IMG/VR virus record: IMGVR_UViG_3300037247_000256
Coordinates: 1-30,824 of that record
Direction: 5' to 3' (one strand)
DNA: 30,824 nt
From: a virus
How positions within the stretch are numbered: the first letter of the stretch is position 1; every line of letters starts with the position of its first letter. Of this stretch, positions 3,049-27,205 are shown one piece after another. The position numbers were made by a program, and so were the translations under genes. The notes beneath the pieces are model-generated. The model did no database searches and was not told the DNA's origin. It saw nothing but the letters and a program-made list of their open reading frames with translations.

Positions 3049-4904
3049 TAACTAGCTCTTGTTATGCTCGTCGGATCGGTCGCGTCATCAAGAGTGAAAA
3101 CCATCAGGCTTGTACTTCCATCGACTTTCTTCACCGTGACCGTCGTGCCAGATACCGCTCGCTCGCTCAAGAATTGCAGGAGCATGTAGAGTGCTTGTTC
3201 TCGCGTGGCAATCGCTCCATCAGCGGAAACTGAGTCGGCCATCTGTGTCGTGAAGGCAGTGTCAACCTCTGCGTTTACTTGGGCCGGCGTCGCCAGTAGC
3301 GCGTGGGCGGTATCCATCTCGGCCTTCGTCGGGCCGGCGTAATCAGCCAGAGCCGTATCAGCCTCTGTATTGATCTTGGTCATGTTGACCAATGACGTCT
3401 CGGTCAACGACGACATTCCGGCCGTGTTATCGGTGATCGATCCAATACCACGTACGCTGACGTTCGCGTTGACATTGCAATTGGCGTTAAAAATGACCTG
3501 ACCGATGCCTTCCCACGTGACGTTGTGCGAAGCTGACAGCGCCTTGAACTCCAACCCGCCGCTGTAATGCCTTACCGATATTGTGCCGGCCGCACCCGTT
3601 GCAATAATTGCAGGAGCAGCCGTGCCCGCGACCAGCGAAAAGCACTGGTCGAACACATTGTCGTTGCTCGCGTCTACCTCAATCTCGTCAACGAATCCGC
3701 ATCTCTCAGCGAAGATGTGAAGCGTCGTAGCACCTGCGCCTGGATCTTGAAGCGCGCAGTCGCGTGCGGTGACCCTGCCTGCGCCGCCCTGCGTACCTTC
3801 GAGCGTCAGATTTCGGAACAAGGATCTGCTCACATCTTGGCTTCCGAGATTGACAATATTATCGGACACACTACCTTTGCCTATGAACTCCCAATCAATA
3901 TGTGTGGCCGCGAGTGTGATGTCGGAGTTGCCTTCGATGTAGTAAATGTTCATGCCCAATTCATCGGCCAACGTACGAGCGGCAACGAACGTCGAGACAG
4001 GATTGATCTCAGTTCCATCTGTACCGACGACGGTGCTTGTATTCGCTGCTCCGCTGTCAATGAAAATGCCTGGACCGTCAGGACCGGCGTACACACCAAG
4101 CGCCACTGCCCAACCCGCGGTCCCCTGCGTGTCGTGATCCTCGATAGCCTCATCCCAGTTATCATCGACCAGTTGTGCGCTGGTAGCGGTTGCAGACAGA
4201 AGGACGCCCGACGTTCCAGTGTCGTCCAGAATGGCCTGAACTAATCCGAAGCTATCGCCCGACTGCGGAGTGTGGTTCGTGAGCGTTGTAACGGTAGCGA
4301 CCGTTTGAGCTCCAGCTATCTGTACCCCAGAAGTTCCCGTATCATCAAGAACGGCTTGCACCAGCGGGAAGCTGTCACCTGATTGTGGGGTGTGATTCGT
4401 TAAGGTCGTTACTGTTGCCACCGTCTGTGCTGAAGCGATCTGCACCCCTGCCGTTCCCGTATCTGCCAGTGTAGCCTGCACATAGTTATCGACCGTTGTG
4501 AATCTTGCCGGGTAATCGTCCTGTTGCATCTCATCCGTATCGGCCAGGATCAATGCAACGTCTGTGTCAGGCGATGCCCCAGAAGCCATCAGGAACTCAT
4601 AGGTGTCTTCCTCGACTACCTGAAACTCGCGCCACACTGGAAGGGCTCCGGTTCCGTGAATCGCCACAATCAGAGGGCCAACGGTGTTCGCATCCGTTCC
4701 GTTATAGGGAACGTCATACCACCCGAACTCATCGTGAGAAGCAGAGGTTCCGCTGTCTTTCTGGGCAAAGTTTCCCCCGAGCTTTGTTAATCTGACCGCG
4801 CTCTGGGGGATAGTCAGACCCGTCTCGGTGGTCTTGCCATCGGTCTCGTCTAAGAACGGTCCTATCTTGAGAGTCCCGCCTGTGGATTGTTTCAGGATAA
4901 TCAT
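3048..4904 (-). CDS. Repeat-containing structural protein (fiber or decoration candidate)
   Basis: The 618-aa protein has an N-terminal beta-rich domain (about 1-120, with FGWYDVPYNGTDANTVGPL), a central block with two full copies and a partial third of a 40-residue repeat (about 145-240, DTGTSGVQIAGAQTVATVTT), and a region resembling a parallel beta-helix (about 270-480, Asn/Gly/Val-rich turns such as NLGSQDVSRSLFRNLTLEG). A helical C-terminal part follows (TKAEMDTAHALLATPAQVNAEVDTA). This layout fits a trimeric fiber, spike or capsid appendage. It sits between portal and protease rather than in the tail module, so attachment to the head is possible but unproven. Confidence 0.78.
   Translation of the reverse strand: MIILKQSTGGTLKIGPFLDETDGKTTETGLTIPQSAVRLTKLGGNFAQKDSGTSASHDEFGWYDVPYNGTDANTVGPLIVAIHGTGALPVWREFQVVEEDTYEFLMASGASPDTDVALILADTDEMQQDDYPARFTTVDNYVQATLADTGTAGVQIASAQTVATVTTLTNHTPQSGDSFPLVQAVLDDTGTSGVQIAGAQTVATVTTLTNHTPQSGDSFGLVQAILDDTGTSGVLLSATATSAQLVDDNWDEAIEDHDTQGTAGWAVALGVYAGPDGPGIFIDSGAANTSTVVGTDGTEINPVSTFVAARTLADELGMNIYYIEGNSDITLAATHIDWEFIGKGSVSDNIVNLGSQDVSRSLFRNLTLEGTQGGAGRVTARDCALQDPGAGATTLHIFAERCGFVDEIEVDASNDNVFDQCFSLVAGTAAPAIIATGAAGTISVRHYSGGLEFKALSASHNVTWEGIGQVIFNANCNVNANVSVRGIGSITDNTAGMSSLTETSLVNMTKINTEADTALADYAGPTKAEMDTAHALLATPAQVNAEVDTAFTTQMADSVSADGAIATREQALYMLLQFLSERAVSGTTVTVKKVDGSTSLMVFTLDDATDPTSITRAS
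4160..4480 (-). repeat. Tandem 120-bp coding repeats
   Basis: Inside the 618-aa protein, a 40-residue unit occurs twice in full and once in part, at a 120-bp period. A core of 18 residues (AQTVATVTTLTNHTPQSG) is identical in the two full units (about 4261-4320 and 4381-4440), yet most codons differ at the third base, for example GTG/GTC, GCA/GCT, ACA/ACC, GTA/GTT and CTT/CTC. The repeats are therefore old or kept different at DNA level, not a recent slippage product. Confidence 0.88.
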
Positions 4905-10345: not shown

Positions 10346-11038
10346 CTATGGGTATCTCATCCTTGCGGTAAGGGTTTCCGATGCCCCGATTCCTTCCCTT
10401 CCGAATCGCTGCTCGGCTTGATCGTCCCGACGTAAATATATACCGAGTACCTCCCGAAGATGATGAAACTTAACACCCGCCTTAGCGAGGCGTAGCCAGT
10501 ACTCGTAATCTCCAGCGGATTGAAATTGCGGATCAAAATATCCGTACTTTTCATGTAACGATTTCCTCCACATCGGCATCGGCCCTAAGAAGCACTGCTG
10601 CAAGAGCTCTTTGTGTCCACCCTCGGCCCATCGGAAATATCCTTCTCTCCAGGCCGAATTGAATCCACCTTCTAAGCTCTCCACAATATCAACGTCGGCA
10701 TAAACTAGGCCAACCTCCGGGCGTTTATCCAGTTCGTGGGCGAGCTTGAAGATCCCATAATCGGCCAGTCGGTCGTCGGAGTTGGCGTTGGTGATGTACT
10801 CGCCCTTCGCTGCTTTGATGCCGAGGTTCCAAGCTTTGTATATCGTCGGAACATCAGGCGTAATAACATAGGTGTCTATCAGCGGATCACAAAGGTTCTC
10901 AGCAATTTCCAGCTCCTGACTCCAGTCCTCCGCAACGACTACAATCTGCGGCCTGAGCGTTTGAGCTTTCAAGTTTTCAATACGCCCCTCAAGATACTCC
11001 TCGCAGAAATAGGCGCTGATGATCGCGCTAACTTTCAT
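10346..11038 (-). CDS. GT2-family glycosyltransferase
   Basis: The 230-aa protein has a GT-A fold: MKVSAIISAYFCEEYLEGRIENL at the N-terminus (nucleotide-sugar binding strand), WNLGIKAAKGEYITNANSDDRL (about 70-92) with the acidic NSDD motif in the metal-binding DXD position, and a C-terminal acceptor part with GDYEYWLRLAKAGVKFHHL, where the ED/DYE-type catalytic acid is expected. The length fits a single-domain cytosolic GT2. Its start overlaps the 93-aa gene by 11 bases. It is one of several glycan genes in this cassette; donor and acceptor are unknown. Confidence 0.88.
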   Translation of the reverse strand: MKVSAIISAYFCEEYLEGRIENLKAQTLRPQIVVVAEDWSQELEIAENLCDPLIDTYVITPDVPTIYKAWNLGIKAAKGEYITNANSDDRLADYGIFKLAHELDKRPEVGLVYADVDIVESLEGGFNSAWREGYFRWAEGGHKELLQQCFLGPMPMWRKSLHEKYGYFDPQFQSAGDYEYWLRLAKAGVKFHHLREVLGIYLRRDDQAEQRFGREGIGASETLTARMRYP

Positions 11039-11309
11039 CTAGCTCCAGAACTGCGTTGATAAGTTCTTGCTTGACCATAAGATCCAAGCTGCGTACTCGT
11101 TGTACAAAACGCTCATGACGGAGGGGCGTTACCCGCCTCGCCAGCTTCCACCACCAAGAATACAAGCGTTGCTTGGCTTCGGTATATGCTTCCCAAGACG
11201 GAAGCGAATCCATAGGTACTCGTAATCCTATGTTTTTTGACAGCATAAGAGAATGCGCCTTTATGTCTATGGCGAACTCTTCTGGTACCAAATAACCGCC
11301 TTCGCTCAT
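11028..11309 (-). CDS. Small protein with capsid N-arm-like opening, hypothetical
   Basis: From ATG 11309 the 93-aa product begins MSEGGYLVPEEFAIDIK. This is very close to SEGGYLVPDDF in the capsid protein of this window, and to the general HK97 capsid N-arm consensus. The rest (WEAYTEAKQRLYSWWWKLARR, then a basic helical region ending MVKQELINAVLELDES) does not look like a capsid. The start is set by GAGGAGATGA just upstream and lies 2 bp after the FkbM gene. The DNA in the shared motif differs at most third positions, so it is not a recent copy. It may be a capsid-binding mimic, a relic or convergence. Confidence 0.78.
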   Translation of the reverse strand: MSEGGYLVPEEFAIDIKAHSLMLSKNIGLRVPMDSLPSWEAYTEAKQRLYSWWWKLARRVTPLRHERFVQRVRSLDLMVKQELINAVLELDES

Positions 11310-11310
11310 T

Positions 11311-12057
11311 TCATCTCCTCGCAAATATCGTGCTGTGCGTTGTCCATTCCGTTCCGATCTGATAAGGCTCAACCACCATCTTGTCGCGGTTGACCCAATC
11401 CAACTGATAGCCGGCCTCCTTCAACAGGTTGGCGGTGATGTCGGGCGCTTCCTTGATGTTGTGGCCTGAGTGAAATTCGATGATCCAGCTCTCGACGTTC
11501 ATCGTCTCAAGCGCCTCGGGGATCACCACATATTCAGACCCTTCGATGTCCAGCTTGACCACCTCGGCCTTAAGGTCTACATCCTTCAACCTCAGCGCAT
11601 CGACCTCGACTCCTCCCTCCTGGTTAATCATCAATGCGCCATTGGGGTGTCCGTCGTACCTGACCTTCCCTTTTTCGTTCCAGAGCGCGGCGGTCAACAT
11701 CTGCCAGGGCTTGAAAGAGTTAAGCACCAGATTGACCTCGGCTGCGTCCATGTTGGGGTCGTGTGTATCAATCAGCGAAAGTCGATGCGGGTATTGAGAA
11801 GCTAAGACGACTGAGTAATGGCCGTGATGCGATCCAGCGTCCACTACATTCTTTCCCTTGATGGCGATGTTGGCCGCGACCCATCGGTATTCAAGAAGCA
11901 CATAATTCTTGGGCGGGTCGTACCAGTCCCGCGCTTGTTCGGTCGTGATGTAGAAGTCCAAATCTGAGAAGCCGTGTTTGATGATATAGGGTTCCACTGG
12001 TTTATCTACCTTCCTTGGACGTATAACGCTGTCGCATTTAAGTCCTATCTCGATCAT
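11311..12057 (-). CDS. FkbM-family methyltransferase
   Basis: The protein (248 aa from ATG 12057; up to 280 aa if an upstream start at 12147 or 12153 is used) has a Rossmann SAM-binding motif KNVVDAGSHHGHYSVVLA and, later, AEVVKLDIEGSEYVVIPEAL, the diagnostic VKLDIEGSE block of FkbM methyltransferases, followed by WIIEFHSGHN. These enzymes O-methylate sugars or related polyketide and glycan groups. The upstream extension overlaps the preceding small gene on another frame, so 12057 is favoured, although no clear ribosome-binding site precedes it. The context suggests methylation of a sugar added by the adjacent transferases. Confidence 0.88.
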   Translation of the reverse strand: MIEIGLKCDSVIRPRKVDKPVEPYIIKHGFSDLDFYITTEQARDWYDPPKNYVLLEYRWVAANIAIKGKNVVDAGSHHGHYSVVLASQYPHRLSLIDTHDPNMDAAEVNLVLNSFKPWQMLTAALWNEKGKVRYDGHPNGALMINQEGGVEVDALRLKDVDLKAEVVKLDIEGSEYVVIPEALETMNVESWIIEFHSGHNIKEAPDITANLLKEAGYQLDWVNRDKMVVEPYQIGTEWTTHSTIFARR

Positions 12058-12292
12058 CTTGGGTGATGGCAATTTGGTGCTCCTTCCACGCTGCCTGAGC
12101 GCGGGTTCGGTAATGCCCTTCGGGAATGTGCCAAGCAAAGTTGCCATCTTCAAGGGTGTAGCCGCAACGCGTCACCCGCCCCCCCACACGCTGAGGGCGA
12201 AGAAAGACAGGATTCCACTTAGCCGACAAATGTTCCGGCGTTCCCATGTAATAGAGTCCTCTTTCATTCGTGCCATGCCCAGGCTCAAACAT
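12038..12292 (-). CDS. Hypothetical protein in glycan cassette
   Basis: The 84-aa product from ATG 12292 (MFEPGHGTNERGLYYMG...) has aromatic and Gly-rich beta segments (RCGYTLEDGNFAWHIPEGHY) and a helical acidic/basic end. The ATG overlaps the TGA of the 57-aa gene (ATGTTTGA), which favours it over a TTG at 12322. It overlaps the FkbM gene at its 3' end. No family is recognised. Confidence 0.6.
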   Translation of the reverse strand: MFEPGHGTNERGLYYMGTPEHLSAKWNPVFLRPQRVGGRVTRCGYTLEDGNFAWHIPEGHYRTRAQAAWKEHQIAITQDDRDRT

Positions 12293-12458
12293 CTTCCAGC
12301 TCGGCGCGCATTTCTGCGTCAAACTTGGCTTGTTCCTTTTTCATTCGCTTCCGCCACTCCTCAGTATGGACAATGCCCCGCGCTCTCTCTGTGTTGTATT
12401 CTGCTAGCGCGGCAAAGCGGTACTCTTCGGTAGGTTTGAGGCTAAATGGAAACTTCAT
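12285..12458 (-). CDS. Small charged helical protein (57 aa), hypothetical
   Basis: The ATG at 12458 overlaps the TGA of the nucleotidyltransferase gene in an ATGA arrangement, and the frame runs 57 codons to a TGA at 12285. The product begins MKFPFSLKPTEEYRFAALAE and continues with a highly charged predicted helix (EEWRKRMKKEQAKFDAEMRA). Both ends are tied to neighbouring genes by overlap, which supports translation. No function can be given. Confidence 0.68.
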   Translation of the reverse strand: MKFPFSLKPTEEYRFAALAEYNTERARGIVHTEEWRKRMKKEQAKFDAEMRAELEDV

Positions 12459-13087
12459 CCCAACACCTTTCGATAATCATCAAAACTAGAAAAGTCGTGA
12501 TAGTAGGCCATCATAAAAGTCTCGAAACCTACTTCAGCAATCGCCACATTGAACGCATCGGTGTGTTCTTTAAGATACGTCTCGCGGATAACGTTCATCG
12601 CGGCGCGAGGCCAACCAAGAAGGCCCCAAGCCTGACGCTCCTTTCCTTCGTTCTTGGAGTTCTTGTCATCGATCCAACCGCCATCCTCGTCCTCCCCCCA
12701 AACGCCAAATTTCTGTCCCTCAGTGGTGTCAAATAGGCCAATCTGGAATACGTCCTTATCAAACACGCCCCCTTGCGGGAACGCATCCAGCGGGAATACC
12801 GTATCGGGCATGGCGAACAGGTAGTAGTCGGAATCCCATGTAATTGACTTGAGCCCGGATAGAAGATTGTCACCTTCTTGAAGGATGAATGTCGCTCCGT
12901 ATCCGTCAAGAGCTTGCGCGTGTTGCATGATCTTCTCGGGCCTTGTCAGCACGATCACGTTGTCGCAATGCTGCTGAAGGATCGTGACGGTATTCCCTAA
13001 AAGAGATCCCCCATTCCACGGCAATAATTCTTTTAAGAGTCCACCGAAGCGTTCGGCTTTGCCGGCGGCTGGAACTATGCCGATCAT
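12455..13087 (-). CDS. Nucleotidyltransferase (sugar-1-phosphate nucleotidylyltransferase-like)
   Basis: From ATG 13087 the 210-aa product begins MIGIVPAAGKAERFGG, followed by KELLPWNGGSLL, the N-terminal nucleotide-binding motif (GxG..xRF..KxLLP) of enzymes that make NDP-sugars. A second conserved region, YYLFAMPDTVFP (about 90-101), fits the metal-binding Asp strand. These enzymes activate a sugar phosphate with NTP to supply glycosyltransferases. The ATG overlaps the previous stop (ATGA). The protein is shorter than typical RmlA/GalU enzymes (about 290 aa), so it is a compact form. Sugar and nucleotide specificity cannot be read. Confidence 0.85.
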   Translation of the reverse strand: MIGIVPAAGKAERFGGLLKELLPWNGGSLLGNTVTILQQHCDNVIVLTRPEKIMQHAQALDGYGATFILQEGDNLLSGLKSITWDSDYYLFAMPDTVFPLDAFPQGGVFDKDVFQIGLFDTTEGQKFGVWGEDEDGGWIDDKNSKNEGKERQAWGLLGWPRAAMNVIRETYLKEHTDAFNVAIAEVGFETFMMAYYHDFSSFDDYRKVLG

Positions 13088-13293
13088 TCTTCCTCCAAGA
13101 GTGCCAGTACGTCGGAGCTTACCTCGTCTCGCCATGCGTAATCGACGGCAGTGTCCAGCACCTGCGCCATCGCACCCAACTCCTTCACTGCACGGACTAA
13201 TAGCATCCCGTTATAGCGTATCTTCTGCGCGTCCCAGTGAATTGCAGAGCCGCGCATTGCCATTACTTCCTCTATCTCGCTCAATGTCTTCAT
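13084..13293 (-). CDS. Hypothetical helical protein
   Basis: The 69-aa product (MKTLSEIEEVMAMRGSA...) is almost wholly alpha-helical, with an acidic C-terminus (DVLALLEEE). ATG 13293 is preceded by GGAGG at a spacing of about 12. It ends in an ATGA overlap with the nucleotidyltransferase. No family is recognised. Confidence 0.65.
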   Translation of the reverse strand: MKTLSEIEEVMAMRGSAIHWDAQKIRYNGMLLVRAVKELGAMAQVLDTAVDYAWRDEVSSDVLALLEEE

Positions 13294-13296
13294 CAA

Positions 13297-13488
13297 TCAA
13301 ACACCCTCCAAGCTGGAATTATCCCTATCATCCATCGCCTCCAACATTCTTAATCTGGCAACTTCACTAATGGACATCCTGCCTTCGGGCGCGGTCCTCA
13401 TAAGTGCCGATGCGTCACTTTTGGTTAATCGGTAACTGATTAACACGGTTTTCTTTTCAATGTATTTAGCTTTGCGGTCCTCGGGCAT
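13297..13488 (-). CDS. Ribbon-helix-helix-like small protein
   Basis: The 63-aa product contains a beta strand (KKTVLISYRLTKSDASAL, about 12-29) followed by two helices (SISEVARLRMLEAM), the order seen in CopG/Arc-type ribbon-helix-helix DNA-binding proteins. GGAGGGCAACG precedes the ATG. It overlaps a second protein of the same general shape (13466-13663). A role as a regulator is inferred from shape only. Confidence 0.6.
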   Translation of the reverse strand: MPEDRKAKYIEKKTVLISYRLTKSDASALMRTAPEGRMSISEVARLRMLEAMDDRDNSSLEGV

Positions 13489-13663
13489 CGTTGCCCTCCA
13501 ATACTAAGGTAAGCAAATATCGAATCGTATATGAGATCGTCGGGTGTCCAAGCTCCTGCTGTATCGCTTCAAGACGATCCCTTTCTTTTTGCATCACCCG
13601 AAAGTGAAGCGTTGCCGTGGCTCTTTCCTCTTCGGGCTTATAGCGACCCCTCTGAGTGGTCAA
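13466..13663 (-). CDS. Ribbon-helix-helix-like small protein
   Basis: The 65-aa product has a basic N-terminus, a strand (TATLHFRVMQKERDRLEAI) and a second helix (ISYTIRYLLTLVLEG). This fits the ribbon-helix-helix fold, with the strand at about residues 16-23. It overlaps the GT2 gene upstream by ATGA and the next RHH-like gene by 23 bp. The two may form homodimers or a heterodimer that controls the cassette; no operator is visible. Confidence 0.58.
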   Translation of the reverse strand: MTTQRGRYKPEEERATATLHFRVMQKERDRLEAIQQELGHPTISYTIRYLLTLVLEGNDARGPQS

Positions 13664-14298
13664 TTAAACACCTTCCAATCTTCGTGTTCACCGATCTTGA
13701 TTTTGTGCTTCTCTTCCAGCCTGATCTTGTTCGCTGCCCTGATTTCGGGGTAGCCTGGGATCCCCCATCTTGTTTTTCCCCAGAAGTGTTTGAAAGGCAG
13801 GTTGCATTTCTCGATGGAGATGCCTAGATGCTGCGCCCTTATACAAAAATCCGCGTCGTCAAATCCGCAAACCTCGAACTGCTCATCGAACCTTCCGACC
13901 ATATCCCAGACATGCTCCGAGATCGCAAACAGCCAGAGGCCCAACCAGCGGAACCCCTTGAAAACGATTAATTGATTTCCATAAAGCGCAGAGGAGTTCA
14001 TCCATTCAAGCTGCTCGATGAATGGCCCCTGACAGAGAACGTCGTTATTTAAGACGATCGTCCAGTCGGTGCTTGAGACTTCCATGCCCAGATTGATCGC
14101 CGCGCTGTATGGCACTCTCTCGTCCAGGTGGATCAGCTTGTAGCCGTGCCCGGAGGGTCCGTGGGGATAGCGACCGAAGGACTTGTTGTCAACCACGATA
14201 ATGTTTACAGAAGGTTCGTGCTTCTGGATCGACTCAATCAAGGGGAAGGTGAACTCCTCCCATTGGTCGATTCCGACGATGACTACTGACGTATCCAT
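13660..14298 (-). CDS. GT2-family glycosyltransferase (rhamnosyltransferase-like)
   Basis: The 212-aa protein has MDTSVVIVGIDQWEEFTFPLIESI at the N-terminus, then VNIIVVDNKS, YSAAINLGMEVSSTDWTIVLNNDV (about 62-85) with NNDV as the DXD-type metal motif, and FDEQFEVCGFDDADFCIRAQHLG, the (E/D)DxDF acceptor motif common in rhamnosyl- and galactosyl-transferases. It is distinct from the 10346-11038 GT2 in sequence, so the cassette likely builds a glycan of more than one sugar. It overlaps its neighbours by a few bases. Substrates are unknown. Confidence 0.88.
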   Translation of the reverse strand: MDTSVVIVGIDQWEEFTFPLIESIQKHEPSVNIIVVDNKSFGRYPHGPSGHGYKLIHLDERVPYSAAINLGMEVSSTDWTIVLNNDVLCQGPFIEQLEWMNSSALYGNQLIVFKGFRWLGLWLFAISEHVWDMVGRFDEQFEVCGFDDADFCIRAQHLGISIEKCNLPFKHFWGKTRWGIPGYPEIRAANKIRLEEKHKIKIGEHEDWKVFN

Positions 14299-14594
14299 TT
14301 GCTCTCCAATATCTCGCCCGCCGCTTCGCTTATGGCCTCGCCCATCTCAATCATGGCTCTGCCCGTTGTCTTAACGTCTCCCACAAGTTCATCAACACAG
14401 TCCAATAAGTCCAGACTGAATTGTCGCCAAGGTTCGCTTATCGGTTCGTGAACCGGAACCCGTGCCATGACATTCTTGGCGTGCTGCATGTGCGTGATGG
14501 TCTGGTCGGGAAGATTCAAATGGCGATCAACGATCTTATTGATCTTTGTATATAGACCGTCAATGTGCTTTAGGGCCTCATCTCGTTCACTCAT
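14283..14594 (-). CDS. Hypothetical helical protein
   Basis: The 103-aa product (MSERDEALKHIDGLYTKINKIVDRHLN...) is predicted to be largely helical. GGGAGATTGGAAAG lies just upstream of the ATG, within a 29-bp sequence repeated at 14832-14860. The 3' end overlaps the GT2 gene by 16 bases. No family is recognised. Confidence 0.65.
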   Translation of the reverse strand: MSERDEALKHIDGLYTKINKIVDRHLNLPDQTITHMQHAKNVMARVPVHEPISEPWRQFSLDLLDCVDELVGDVKTTGRAMIEMGEAISEAAGEILESKWIRQ

Positions 14595-14631
14595 CTTTCC
14601 AATCTCCCTTCTCGAATACTGCGACGTTCAT
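14587..14631 (-). CDS. 14-codon micro-ORF, possible remnant of duplication or leader peptide
   Basis: The ATG at 14631 overlaps the TGA of the 68-aa gene (ATGA), and the frame reads MNVAVFEKGDWKDE to a TGA at 14587-14589, inside the next gene. The last ten residues closely match the C-terminus of the 455-aa glycosyltransferase (VFEKGDWNDA). It may be translated for coupling, or simply be the relic of a duplicated gene end carrying the ribosome-binding site. Confidence 0.4.
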   Translation of the reverse strand: MNVAVFEKGDWKDE

Positions 14632-14860
14632 CGTAGCTTTTGTAACTGGTCCGCGGCGTAGCGATTGACTATGTTGTCTTCATAATCAATGTGAATAATC
14701 GGCGTATAAAATCCTTCATCGTCAGGCTCGCCCCATTCAAATATAAGACGATTGCCATCCCTGTCTCGAGTAGCCCAGCTTTCCATTAGTTCGGGCGTCA
14801 TCTTCACCTTGCGAAAGACATCACCTTCAGGCATCGTTCCAATCTCCCTTTTCGAATACT
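14592..14860 (-). repeat. Direct repeat of a gene junction (29 bp, 27 identical)
   Basis: The plus-strand sequences at 14592-14620 and 14832-14860 differ at only two of 29 bases. Each copy holds the end of a VFEKGDW-coding stretch, the ribosome-binding site AAGGGAGATTGG and the following ATG. This suggests that a 3' end plus translation start was copied when the small gene between them was inserted or duplicated. Confidence 0.85.
14628..14834 (-). CDS. Hypothetical acidic protein
   Basis: The 68-aa product (MPEGDVFRKVKMTPELMESWATRDRDG...) has mixed strands and is rich in Asp, Glu and aromatic residues (FEWGEPDDEGFYTPIIHIDYED). The ribosome-binding site AAGGGAG belongs to the duplicated junction. 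It overlaps the 455-aa glycosyltransferase by 8 bases and the micro-ORF by an ATGA. No family is recognised. Confidence 0.66.
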   Translation of the reverse strand: MPEGDVFRKVKMTPELMESWATRDRDGNRLIFEWGEPDDEGFYTPIIHIDYEDNIVNRYAADQLQKLR

Positions 14861-16194
14861 TCTAAAGCTGAATTTGGAGTCACATTAATAATCTGACGCC
14901 CGTCCTTTTCAAAAGCTTCCCTCGCCATCTGGTAAGCCTCCTCCGATTTCTTTAGGTCAGGCGCGTTCCATTTGGCCCCATTGGAAAAGTAGTTCTCATC
15001 GGCATGATTGAGGTCCGGCCCTTGGGCTATAAGTTGTTCGTTCGGGCTCCCCTCGAACCTGTAGCGGTGATCGACCCCGACCAATATGACCTTAGAAAAG
15101 CCCATGTAGTAGGCGAGCTGCAAACAGACGAACGTGACTGTATGCCCTTCGTAAATCTCTTGAGTGGGGTCATCAAAAAAGCGTTGAGCTCCCGAGGAAA
15201 TCAGCGGGACAACGGCCGGCTGTTGTCCTAAAGCCGCGCCGCTGACATAGGCACCCCTTAAGAAGAATCTTAGTACCTTGCCTTTGTATTGCTGGAGCAT
15301 CTCTCGCCCGAACTGATCCAGCACTAACGGATTGACTGCCGCGTAATAGGTTGGGTGAAATCCCTCCAGGTGACGGATAGCATAAATTCTGTTCGTGCCG
15401 AAGGTCGGGTACTTCTTCAAGAAGTCGATCGGGACTTCTTTAAGGGAAGGGCCGTTGCCAATGATGATACAGGTCTCGCCCTTGTGTTTGTCCTTGAGGT
15501 CGCCCCATTTCTCTTCGGCCTCCTGGTGGGATGCCTGCCAGTGTTCCTCCCCAATCCAATCAATAGTCTGATGCGGCGCGACCAGCCCCATATCGGCGTG
15601 CATCTTTATTCCAGCCGCCATGCAGAGCGTTCCGAAATACCAATCCTCCCCCAGAAGTATGTCTGACTCGTCCTCATACATCATGCGGAACCACGGATAG
15701 TGATAGTCTTTTTCTTCCAGCTCCGTAAAGACCTTGCGTTGGATGCACAGCGCAGCGGCCCCAACAATGTCCCACTCGAACACCCCCGGAGTCCAGGTAG
15801 CGGGTTGGAAAGATCCATCACCATCAATCTTGTAGGCTTGCGGATCGAAGGGGTAACTGCGGCGAAAAGCTAAAGCCCCAACGATCGGGAGCTTATGGGA
15901 AAGAAGTCTATGAACTGTCTCCGGCTTGTGCGCGTGATCCGTGTCGAGCATCGTCACCGTCGATTCGGGGTGCTGCGTCATTTCACAGAACTTCTTTGCG
16001 ATCCGATTCCGCGCAAAGTCCACCCGCGCGTAGGGGTGTCTGATCCTGCGGATCCCGTTCATCGCGTTGTAGGCCGATATATCCTCTCGAATATCGACAA
16101 CCTCGGCCGCGATGTAGCGTTCGTTCAAGAAGGCGAAGTAGTGCTCGGGCTGTTCCTCCCGCGTACGCTGAGGCCGGCGCTTACGTTTGCTCAA
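14827..16194 (-). CDS. Two-domain glycosyltransferase: GT-A domain plus DUF115/MAF-like domain
   Basis: The first ~220 of 455 residues look like a GT-A domain, with HPESTVTMLDTDHAHKP (LDTDH in the DXD metal-binding position, about 82-86), GALAFRRSYPFDPQAY and ILLGEDWYFGTLCMAAG, where GEDWYF fits the ED-type acceptor-side acid. From about 235 onward GETCIIIGNGPSLKEVPIDFLKKYPTFGTNRIYA is the signature of DUF115 (motility accessory factor/MptE-like) or CST-like transferases, with VILVGVDHRY and NYFSNGAKWN following. Proteins of the DUF115 group transfer nonulosonic acid-type sugars in flagellin glycosylation. A fusion of both kinds is unusual and would allow two linked transfer steps. The role is inferred. 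Confidence 0.8.
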   Translation of the reverse strand: MSKRKRRPQRTREEQPEHYFAFLNERYIAAEVVDIREDISAYNAMNGIRRIRHPYARVDFARNRIAKKFCEMTQHPESTVTMLDTDHAHKPETVHRLLSHKLPIVGALAFRRSYPFDPQAYKIDGDGSFQPATWTPGVFEWDIVGAAALCIQRKVFTELEEKDYHYPWFRMMYEDESDILLGEDWYFGTLCMAAGIKMHADMGLVAPHQTIDWIGEEHWQASHQEAEEKWGDLKDKHKGETCIIIGNGPSLKEVPIDFLKKYPTFGTNRIYAIRHLEGFHPTYYAAVNPLVLDQFGREMLQQYKGKVLRFFLRGAYVSGAALGQQPAVVPLISSGAQRFFDDPTQEIYEGHTVTFVCLQLAYYMGFSKVILVGVDHRYRFEGSPNEQLIAQGPDLNHADENYFSNGAKWNAPDLKKSEEAYQMAREAFEKDGRQIINVTPNSALEVFEKGDWNDA

Positions 16195-18012: not shown

Positions 18013-18359
18013 GCAAACATCCGTCGCTGTGCTACCTCTACGTTCTGCCCCAGTAAATCCCGCTGCTTCCTCAAGCCCGTCATCATCTGCAAGGCCCTCG
18101 ATCTTTGCTCCCGATAAAAGTCCTCAAACTCATCATAGCTTCCTAGCATCCAGTAACCCTGCCAGCCAGACGAGCTCATAATCCTGGCCCCGCGTTCGCT
18201 CGTCTGACGTAGGTTCTCGATCGCCTCCCTTATGGCCCGATCCCCTACTTTCTGATCGATCAGGAGATTGACCTCGTAGACCAGTCGATCCCTTGAGAGG
18301 GCGGAGCCTTTGGTGCGTCCTTCTAAGAGCTTGAGGATTGCAAGCTCGATGTCATTCAC
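18009..18359 (-). CDS. Winged-helix-like phage protein
   Basis: The likely start is GTG at 18359, just before the TGA of the TOPRIM gene; the 116-aa product begins NDIELAILKLLEGRTKGSALSR, a helix-turn-helix/winged-helix pattern in which the next helices are VYEVNLLIDQKVGDRAIREAI and the wing is about ARIMSSSGWQGYW. The C-terminal half is helical (YREQRSRALQMMTGLRKQR). It is probably a DNA-binding partner or regulator. The ATG at 18392 lies in a different context, inside the upstream gene. Confidence 0.7.
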   Translation of the reverse strand: MNDIELAILKLLEGRTKGSALSRDRLVYEVNLLIDQKVGDRAIREAIENLRQTSERGARIMSSSGWQGYWMLGSYDEFEDFYREQRSRALQMMTGLRKQRDLLGQNVEVAQRRMFA

Positions 18360-19185
18360 GTTTAAGTAGTTCCATTGCCTTGCTGATAGCAAGACGCTCT
18401 TGCTCTAGCTGCTCATAATAGACGACTCGGGCCTCTTCCGGCCATGCTTGAAGTAGCCGATTTCTGAGAATTTCTCGCAAGCGTTCGACAGGTAGGGCCT
18501 CAACTTCCCATGCCCTAGCCCCATAGCGAGCTTCGTATCTTGGCGTTCGACTATCGGTTGGCTTAAGATCAAGATGTGGTAGACCTTGAGCTTGTTCCCA
18601 AGTTAGGGCTATTCGTTCAACTTCCCAGGACACTCCAAAGTCGTTTATCAAGTTTGTTTCCAAACTTTCATCAATCACCATACCGCTCGGATCGTGATCA
18701 CCTATGAACAAAACCCGTTCAACGTTTGTGTCCAAATTGAGGGCAACCTTGCGAATGTGCGAAAGCCCGGAGAAACCACGCCCAGAAACCAGCGGACAAA
18801 CGAAATCCCTAGCAAGATCCTCTACTGTCGGAACAATTGTGTCTTTTTCGACCCAAAGCAAACACCCGTGTTCGGCCATCGGCGTGTAATACAAATGGGC
18901 ATTCTTGGCGAAGTCCTCTAGATTTTTCTCGGTGAAATTCCGCTGATAGATTCGCCCAACGTCGGTTATCCATTCCCACGGAATAACATCCCGGCGACGA
19001 CCCTTTTCTAGTGCAGTTTGAATGGCCTTATAGGATCGACGCTTGGTATCCTTAGTGTCTGGCGGAAGCCACCCTTCAGAGATCGCCACATAATAGACTT
19101 GACGGACAGTCTGTGGATAAAATGCGGACAAGACCTTTGCCGCCCAATCTATTCGCTCGTTCAGTGATTTGCTACCAGTAGTCAT
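18352..19185 (-). CDS. Spo11/topoisomerase VI A-like protein with TOPRIM domain
   Basis: The 277-aa protein shows the two parts of type IIB topoisomerase A subunits. The N-terminal winged-helix/CAP region has QTVRQVYYVAISEGW (tyrosines at residues 31-32, matching the R.YY catalytic-tyrosine motif of Spo11 and Topo VI A). The C-terminal TOPRIM domain has CLLWVEKDT (Glu113), and VLFIGDHDPSGM (Asp163, Asp165). No B-subunit (GHKL ATPase) is visible in the window. Families of orphan A-like proteins in mobile elements have been described (I recall Mini-A and Topo VIII). The protein may nick or break DNA for replication or recombination. The ATG has no ribosome-binding site and follows an 8-bp hairpin. 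Confidence 0.82.
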   Translation of the reverse strand: MTTGSKSLNERIDWAAKVLSAFYPQTVRQVYYVAISEGWLPPDTKDTKRRSYKAIQTALEKGRRRDVIPWEWITDVGRIYQRNFTEKNLEDFAKNAHLYYTPMAEHGCLLWVEKDTIVPTVEDLARDFVCPLVSGRGFSGLSHIRKVALNLDTNVERVLFIGDHDPSGMVIDESLETNLINDFGVSWEVERIALTWEQAQGLPHLDLKPTDSRTPRYEARYGARAWEVEALPVERLREILRNRLLQAWPEEARVVYYEQLEQERLAISKAMELLKRE

Positions 19186-19242: not shown

Positions 19243-19422
19243 TCAAGATTCATTAGCCATTCGTTCTTCTTGCTCAATTGTTATCAATACAACTGTTGCG
19301 TCACTCGCTAATTTTAGGCAGGCTTCCGCATAAGAATAGCTGTTGTCTTCTGCGTGTTTTTCAGCGAGCTTGAGCATTGCGACAATGAAATCTGAATATG
19401 TTAGATCGGGCACATTCTTCAT
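19243..19422 (-). CDS. Small protein (59 aa), hypothetical
   Basis: An ATG at 19422 preceded by AGGAGGG starts a 59-codon frame: MKNVPDLTYSDFIVAMLKLA and onward, ending ERMANES. The product is amphipathic, with a helical middle (SYAEACLKLASDATVVLITIE). It has no recognised family. It is the only gene between the structured non-coding region and the TOPRIM gene. Confidence 0.75.
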   Translation of the reverse strand: MKNVPDLTYSDFIVAMLKLAEKHAEDNSYSYAEACLKLASDATVVLITIEQEERMANES

Positions 19423-19440
19423 AACTCATCCCTCCTCATT

Positions 19441-19862
19441 TCGGGCGGTTTTTTTCAAACGCTTGCAACGCTAGTCCCTTTCGGGTGTGGCCCAGGCCCT
19501 TCAATTTACCCTCACGTTGCACCCCATACTAAGGTCAAGGAGCGGTCGCTCTTCGGAGCTTTTCTTCTCTGGGATCGTGTCTCGGTGGCCGCAAGCAAGA
19601 GGTCACGCGGCCATATTAGGAGACTATGGCCGCGTAAGTTGTTCCTTAAACGACTTACGCCCACTGCGCTGGCGGTATGCGGTGGAATCGAGGGTTGCCC
19701 TTCGGCTTTCCGCAAGCCCACCAGCGCGGTAGGCGTAAATGTATGCGCGAATAACGCATGGCCTCGATTCCATAATCTAATCATAATCCTAAATCCTTTC
19801 GGTATCAAGCGTCAATCGCCACATTTAGGTGAACAGCTACAACACGCCCCACATGCGCGGCA
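19441..19862 (-). ncRNA. Structured non-coding region with interleaved long helices (ncRNA candidate)
   Basis: No credible protein frame is present over about 420 bp. The DNA has several strong complementary arms: 19605-19615 with 19625-19635 (11 bp, perfect); 19633-19642 with 19650-19659; 19655-19672 with 19721-19738 (18-nt arms, 16 matches plus one wobble); and 19684-19693 with 19762-19771 (10 bp, perfect). The last two interleave, so they form a pseudoknot or alternate states. On the minus strand a CCC-GAAA-GGG hairpin (19476-19485) has a GNRA loop, which favours an RNA read in the operon direction. It matches no RNA class that I can recognise. A replication origin or a hairpin-rich element is an alternative. 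Confidence 0.55.
19605..19771. repeat. Cluster of inverted repeats in the non-coding region
   Basis: Besides the arms listed for the RNA candidate, 19704-19708/19714-19718 (5 bp) and 19743-19747/19755-19759 (5 bp) also pair. Several arms compete for the same bases (for example, 19633-19635 in two stems), which implies that the structure could switch. Confidence 0.8.
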
Positions 19863-20009
19863 TCACGGTTCGAAATCAAGCCAACCGATGAGTCGGCACA
19901 GCCATGCAAACAGCCATCCCAAATGCCGTCCGCGAAATTCTTGCGACAAGAACCCCCCAGGTGCTCTCCAGTAATAAAAGTTAAACTCGCCCGCCCAAAC
20001 CAATTTCAT
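19863..20009 (-). CDS. Small membrane protein (48 aa)
   Basis: ATG 20009 with AAAGGAGATGCTGAA just upstream leads a 48-codon frame, MKLVWAGEFNFYYWRAPGG... ending GWLDFEP. Residues ~29-44 (RHLGWLFAWLCRLIGWL) are Trp/Leu-rich and likely lie on or in the membrane. It is the last gene before the structured region. Function unknown. Confidence 0.68.
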   Translation of the reverse strand: MKLVWAGEFNFYYWRAPGGFLSQEFRGRHLGWLFAWLCRLIGWLDFEP

Positions 20010-26320: not shown

Positions 26321-27205
26321 TCATCGGTCATTGATCGTCTCCCTCATCCACTCGCGCAGATCGGTGTCGGCAATCATGCCCCGCATCGGTTTCTCATCCT
26401 GAAAGATTGGAGTGTCACCTCTGATAATGTACGGCTCTTCAAGTTGAACCCAACGCACATCATAGTCAGAAGTTTTGATCTTCCACCCCAACCGGAATAA
26501 CCAATAAAGCTGCTCGATATTTGAAAGATCGGTTTCAAACAGATCACCCCATCGCGAATAGACTACATTAGCCGCCGCCCTGGGATCTTCTAGGAAGAAG
26601 GTACTACCCCGCGCCCACAGCTCTGCAAGCACCTGAAACACCCGTTGGCCCGCATCATAGCTTCCCATCCCCCAATTGTTTTCATTATCTCTGAGATAGG
26701 CCAGTGTCTCTGTTCCATCCATTCCCAGATCGTCAACCAACAGCTCGAAGGAATCCATGTTGATGTAGTGGATCCCCTGAATAGAAACCCCGAAGGCTCT
26801 TTGGAAATAATTGTGCAGCCCCTGCCATCCCTCGCGATCCCAAACCCCGAATAACCATTGAGCGGATAAACCGGAAACTGGTACATACAGGTTTCGTGGA
26901 AATTGAACTACCGTGATCTGCATCGGATCAGTCTCGAGTACAGATACAAGCACGATCACATCCGTCTTGTCGCCCCAATCTGTACCCTCGCGGTGTGCGC
27001 GGTAGTCACCACCAAGTAAGAGCCAATTCGTTCGTTCAAAAGCCGGTACAGGGGTTAGTGTAGGCTCGGGAATTTGAGTCGGAGCAAACTCCGTCGCCAT
27101 AATCTCGGTCTGTATTGGCCCAATAAAAGCAGGCTCTTCAGGATCGGGAATCGGCGCGGCAACACAAGCCGTTAGCAGCAAGGCAAAAACTAGGATTGTT
27201 TTCAT
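26321..27205 (-). CDS. LytR-CpsA-Psr (LCP) family lipoprotein
   Basis: The 294-aa product has a lipoprotein signal MKTILVFALLLTAC (Cys14), a Pro/Thr-rich linker (EFAPTQIPEPTLTPVP), then the LCP core: NWLLLGGDYRAHREGTDWGDKTDVIVLVSV and ITVVQFPRNLYVPV (Arg104 in the position of the conserved PR-D motif), IHYINMDSFELLVDDLG, and LRDNENNWGMGSYDAGQRVFQVL. LCP enzymes join glycopolymers (teichoic acids, arabinogalactan, capsule) to peptidoglycan outside the membrane. It lacks the usual N-terminal transmembrane helix, being a lipoprotein instead. A phage copy within the lysis/late region is unusual. No ribosome-binding site is visible before the ATG. Confidence 0.85.
   Translation of the reverse strand: MKTILVFALLLTACVAAPIPDPEEPAFIGPIQTEIMATEFAPTQIPEPTLTPVPAFERTNWLLLGGDYRAHREGTDWGDKTDVIVLVSVLETDPMQITVVQFPRNLYVPVSGLSAQWLFGVWDREGWQGLHNYFQRAFGVSIQGIHYINMDSFELLVDDLGMDGTETLAYLRDNENNWGMGSYDAGQRVFQVLAELWARGSTFFLEDPRAAANVVYSRWGDLFETDLSNIEQLYWLFRLGWKIKTSDYDVRWVQLEEPYIIRGDTPIFQDEKPMRGMIADTDLREWMRETINDR

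Follow-up and report, generated by a model that had tools for sequence, protein, structure and literature searches.

What is an apparently gene-free interval of about 420 bp doing inside a minus-strand stretch of phage genes? The window (the whole stretch of DNA that was analysed) is a linear virus record of 30,824 bases, and a sequence-only reading of it had proposed that positions 19441-19862 carry the interleaved helices of a possible new phage ncRNA, with a replication origin as the main alternative. Judging from comparison with related phage contigs, the locus probably encodes a structured phage RNA which keeps its shape, not its sequence, among these phages.

The gap and its coding capacity

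The gap proved to be genuine. It runs from a 48-aa open reading frame (ORF), whose stop lies near 19863, to the start at 19425 of a 59-aa ORF (19246-19425, minus strand, start region GAGGAGGGATGAGTTATG). The latter, the next gene downstream of the RNA, had a codon log-odds of +0.178 and no family in Pfam or PHROGs; beyond it lies a topoisomerase-like gene (18352-19185, phrog_6247). The mechanically called ORFs within the gap matched nothing in Pfam or PHROGs, and their codon log-odds were neutral (-0.015 to -0.083), whereas almost every neighbouring gene scored between +0.07 and +0.29; the 48-aa neighbour was likewise neutral (-0.003). Elsewhere in the window, glycosyltransferase-, nucleotidyltransferase- and methyltransferase-like genes, recognised by eye from their translations, occupy 10346-16194, with the terminase on one side and the early genes on the other, a block common to the phage group. 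A LytR_cpsA_psr-like protein at 26321-27205 (E 3e-4, under Pfam's cut-off) is unusual for a phage and hints at the host's cell wall. A search for the host with the portal protein, run over 400 genomes from a single phylum, gave a match of only 30%.

Related copies

A search with the ERF recombinase led to loci L003 and L004, and the 44-bp promoter block led to interleaved helices in L004, written in mostly different letters. A pattern built from the few shared bases yielded L136, and alignment of the neighbouring glycosyltransferase-like protein gave L257-L265, with L260 and L258 included. All copies belong to a single group of related phage contigs; portal and terminase alignments supplied about 100 additional loci, including 80 from more distant terminase relatives, with zero further copies. 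The window's own copy, L004, L136 and L260 have the same promoter spacing and architecture in largely different sequence, and all show the pseudoknot of helices P1 and P2 with its covariation. L258 is probably a further member on the basis of its topology and promoter phasing (0 of 2000 shuffles), and fell below covariance-model detection with 12.1 bits. L257 is possibly a further, diverged member: at about 5000-4830 on its minus strand it has a promoter-like TTGACA-N17-GATAAT, a P1 of GGCCAGGG and CCCTGGCC, the same helix order and a U-run past P2, but its P1 stands away from the predicted start, unlike that of the other members. This intergenic pseudoknot lies immediately ahead of a DnaD-like replication gene.

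Wider searches gave little. Viral and genome collections searched with loose DNA patterns (GGTGGNCTTGCGG plus a gapped CCGCA; ACCGN4GGTGGNCTTGCGGA) returned chance-level matches only, a BLAST search of annotated phages and plasmids with the RNA brought up nothing meaningful, and the first covariance model, R1, found one match (E 0.007) in about 700 bacterial genomes, which P1 did not confirm. At L283 (about 11400-11560), a GAATGCCAGAGAA-type array of direct and inverted repeats scored as a pseudoknot too.

Anatomy of the RNA

The conserved core consists of P1, a small hairpin (hp1) and P2, and spans about 122 nt on the minus strand (19651-19773), as located by a leave-one-out covariance model and by a descriptor score of 99.6. 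The 5' arm of P1 (TGGAATCGAGG, 19762-19772) stands at the predicted 5' end of the RNA and pairs perfectly over 11 bp, where 10 bp had been reported, with its 3' arm (CCTCGATTCCA, 19683-19693). This 3' arm, identified by pairing and covariation, lies within the apical loop of P2 and makes the structure a pseudoknot. hp1 (ATGCG/CGCAT, 19743-19759) is placed between the 5' arms of P1 and P2. The outer helix of P2 joins ATTTACGCCTAC (19729-19740) to GTGGGCGTAAGT (19653-19664) and the middle helix joins GCGCTGGTGG (19718-19727) to CCGCCAGCGC (19666-19675), all four arms being supported by the descriptor and covariation and the first also by a stem search; the inner helix joins TGCGG (19710-19714), invariant in the window copy, L004, L136 and L260, to CCGCA (19678-19682), which adjoins the 3' arm of P1. 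This is the long-range stem formerly described with 18-nt arms, which are actually 21 nt long (86%, 19718-19738 / 19655-19675). Across members, a P1 of 10-13 bp brackets a small hairpin together with the 5' arm of P2, and P2 is built in two or three parts; the 3' arm of P1 ends 0-1 nt ahead of that of P2 in the window copy, L004 and L260. Directly past P2, UUUAA (19646-19650, minus strand) is kept in the window copy, L004, L136 and L260, and is a weak terminator at best because it has three U only. L258 has TTTTGCTT instead, and in L257 a U-run (TTTTTCG) follows P2.

Beyond the core, arms at 19625-19637 and 19603-19615 form a hairpin (19603-19637, minus strand) of 13 bp including G-U pairs, previously given as 11 bp. 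It is present in the sequence, but homologues did not confirm it; it is possibly the counterpart of P3, a hairpin region beyond P2 common to L004, L136 and L260, though not alignable with it. The minus-strand GNRA hairpin (CCCGAAAGGG, 19485-19476) also exists as described, again with no confirmation from homologues, and belongs to the remainder of the interval (19441-19600, minus strand), for which sequence searches found no homologue. The original extent of 420 bp was therefore too large: about 160 bp including the promoter are supported, in a shifted position (promoter to 19808, core 19651-19773), and the 3' half (about 19440-19600) has no homologous support.

Two of the related loci carry other elements nearby. 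In L260, a GIY-YIG-type ORF (MUG113/T5orf172, with HTH; MUG113 E 2e-11) lies between P2 and P3 at about 4052-3682 on the minus strand. Just downstream of the RNA in L136 (about 3640-3735, minus strand) is a degenerate tRNA-like sequence with good T-arm (GAGGGTTCGATTCCCTC) and D-arm, a bulged acceptor and an enlarged anticodon region that contains an additional hairpin; ARAGORN called no tRNA there, and Rfam only a tmRNA T-arm fragment.

Compensatory changes in the helices

The helices had been called strong, and they exceed chance: a 178-nt minus-strand stretch folded with z = -7.4 and the entire interval with z = -3.5, and none of 2000 dinucleotide shuffles reached the window copy's anchored pseudoknot score. 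Both the interleaved and the long stem showed compensatory changes in their two arms. L004 and L136 are identical in their P1 and P2 letters, so that the comparison effectively rests on four alleles for P1 and three for P2. In P1, whose fourth distinct allele is L258, 40 of 40 cells were paired and 7 of 10 positions had changed on both sides. Sliding the partner by 1-3 nt left 12-18 of the 40 cells paired, and combining arms from different alleles left 4-8 of 10. These cells were counted by script; MAFFT offsets P1 by 2-3 columns. For P2 and hp1 together (alignment A8; the window copy, L004, L136 and L260), 90.6% were paired with 11 doubly changed pairs (0 of 500 shuffles), and slid controls reached at most 50%. 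hp1 was paired in 4 of 4 aligned copies, with one pair doubly changed, and both P2 and hp1 tolerated G-U pairs.

A covariance model built from L004, L136 and L260 alone matched the window at 19772-19651 with 63.5 bits (E 3.3e-12), a score that is partly due to sequence because GGTGG-CTTGCGG is common to the window copy and L004. With the promoter-anchored descriptor, members scored 83-100 (99.6 for the window copy) and the best non-member 57.9 among 2770 anchors in 3.6 Mb; no member was equalled in 2000 shuffles. The first descriptor was drawn up in knowledge of the window copy, L004, L136 and L260; it then picked out L258, and only after this was the TGG anchor introduced. The anchored scores thus depend in part on the members themselves.

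The same comparison bears on whether the interval is a short protein-coding gene whose helices are a mere by-product. A 98-aa minus-strand ORF does span the core, and each copy has an in-frame ATG at or near the -10. However, codon usage in the gap ORFs is neutral, and no conserved reading frame was found across the homologous regions. The frame is broken by P1 spans of 90, 86, 87 and 59 nt and by single-base indels between L004 and L136, and the letters change while helix pairing is retained. Such a gene is extremely improbable, and the protein reading was dropped on these grounds.

Promoter phasing

A consensus scan (10/12) predicted a sigma-70-type promoter on the minus strand at 19780-19808, with -35 TTGATA (19808-19803), a 17-nt spacer and -10 TATGAT (19785-19780). 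The predicted transcription start is at about 19773, and the core starts 7 nt past the -10. The window's promoter block (19780-19822) has a 44-bp counterpart in L004 with 86% identity, and the window copy, L004, L136, L260 and L258 give the promoter-like consensus TTGNNN-N16/17-TA(T/A)(G/A)(A/C)T. In all five of these copies the -10 is followed, after exactly 7 nt, by TGG, the first bases of P1.

This spacing is the main point against an element acting at the DNA level, namely an inverted-repeat replication origin or a recombination site. The strong inverted repeats, the adjoining topoisomerase-like gene and the DnaD-like replication gene that follows the possible copy in L257 would all suit such an element. 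However, a DNA-level element does not predict that P1 starts exactly 7 nt past the -10 in five copies, and P2 and hp1 accept G-U pairs. The cumulative GC-skew shows no turn at the site, and no origin-type direct repeats were seen, the search here having covered inverted repeats only. The origin, once the main alternative, is thus disfavoured by the promoter-P1 phasing, and the pattern can be explained without it; we regard a DNA-level element of either kind as quite improbable.

The sequence comparison leaves us with high confidence in the predicted anatomy: a P1 phased to the promoter, and a pseudoknot conserved through compensatory change. The proposal of a new pseudoknotted phage ncRNA on the minus strand is supported by the compensatory changes, the lack of an Rfam match and the absence of a conserved frame.

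Possible role of the RNA

Transcription from the predicted promoter and the mode of action are what we infer. The reading that we prefer, tentatively, is that of a phage-encoded structured RNA with its own sigma-70-type promoter, directed leftward and acting in cis as a promoter-proximal leader. The RNA would be transcribed leftwards (minus strand) from this promoter, and its first 11-12 nt would pair into the loop of the long hairpin to give a compact 5' pseudoknot of about 122 nt, folding once clear of RNA polymerase. The pseudoknot may then, like the put RNA of HK022, modify the elongation complex and thereby allow read-through of the following operon, or it might alternatively protect the operon mRNA against decay at its 5' end. 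A cis leader is favoured because of the position at +1 inside a gene series, the same-strand followers, the changing downstream genes and, mostly, no good terminator. All copies point into same-strand genes, which differ from locus to locus (a 59-aa ORF, a 282-aa ORF, a GIY-YIG ORF and a glycosyltransferase operon), though orientation is weak evidence because the surrounding genes are nearly all on one strand. A strong terminator after P2 was sought in the window copy, L004, L136 and L260 and none was found, so the transcript should continue into the operon there.

Close behind ranks a free-standing small RNA acting in trans, a distinctly possible reading in which the pseudoknotted RNA would be ended or processed after P2 or P3 and would target a phage or host protein or RNA. 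The U-run directly past P2 in L258 and L257 means that P2 could double as a terminator and end a separate small RNA there; moreover, the downstream genes are unrelated from phage to phage and the RNA has its own (predicted) promoter. The lack of a strong terminator after P2 in the other four copies speaks against such a small RNA, as does the P3 region beyond P2 common to L004, L136 and L260.

The RNA might also belong to a mobile element, being homing-endonuclease-associated or intron-like, since the MUG113/T5orf172 (GIY-YIG-type) ORF with its HTH directly follows P2 in L260. However, this ORF resembles, and is most simply explained as, a homing endonuclease insertion between P2 and P3, and no nuclease lies directly downstream of the RNA in the window copy, L004, L136 or L258. 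Group I/II introns gave no Rfam match, and the promoter phasing would be unexpected for an intron. We consider a mobile-element RNA improbable.

There are few structured phage RNAs, and most of them lack an explanation; the present one is compact, and its covariation is unusually clean despite the handful of copies. With a 5' end predicted to the nucleotide, the RNA lends itself to in vitro transcription and to assays of folding, read-through or binding partners. Promoter-anchored pseudoknot descriptors can detect RNA families that are too diverged for sequence search.

Comparison with known RNAs

Rfam covariance models gave no match at the gathering threshold in the window or its relatives, and otherwise chance-level matches only. 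GOLLD, ROOL, Phage_pRNA, group I/II introns, tmRNA and riboswitches all stayed below that threshold, and no likeness was found to GOLLD or ROOL, which the sequence-only reading had cited as precedents while naming no match. By analogy, the RNA would work like a phage regulatory or scaffold RNA, and it is outside every family testable here. The pRNA of phi29 is a compact promoter-driven phage RNA; the present RNA is likewise compact and, as predicted, promoter-driven, but has no Rfam match and lies away from the packaging genes. In HDV-like nested pseudoknot ribozymes, a 5'-terminal P1 strand pairs into a loop and is interleaved with a second helix. The interleaved topology is the same here, whereas P1 has 10-13 bp compared with about 7, no Rfam match was obtained, and the J4/2 and P4 elements are absent because the 3' arm of P1 abuts that of P2.

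GOLLD and ROOL are ornate RNAs of 600-800+ nt (PMC12286853). They are phage-encoded structured RNAs with pseudoknots as well, and L136 even has a tRNA-like stretch beside the RNA; however, the core here has about 122 nt and matches nothing in Rfam, in the window or the relatives. The put RNA of HK022 is about 70 nt long, with two stem-loops and no pseudoknot (PMC9378689). Like putL and putR, the present RNA is a phage RNA predicted to fold just past a promoter, an early one in HK022 (putL pairs from nt 3), with no gene product needed. The anatomy is different: a long P1/P2 pseudoknot shapes a core of about 122 nt, and the short put RNAs without a pseudoknot count against the put-type cis reading (PMC9378689). 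put suppresses termination through the zinc-binding domain of the RNA polymerase beta' subunit. It is rather unlikely that the RNA represents a new family of phage RNAs which are protein-free and promoter-proximal and modify the host elongation complex via a pseudoknot; if true, it would be a second structural solution to put-type antitermination.
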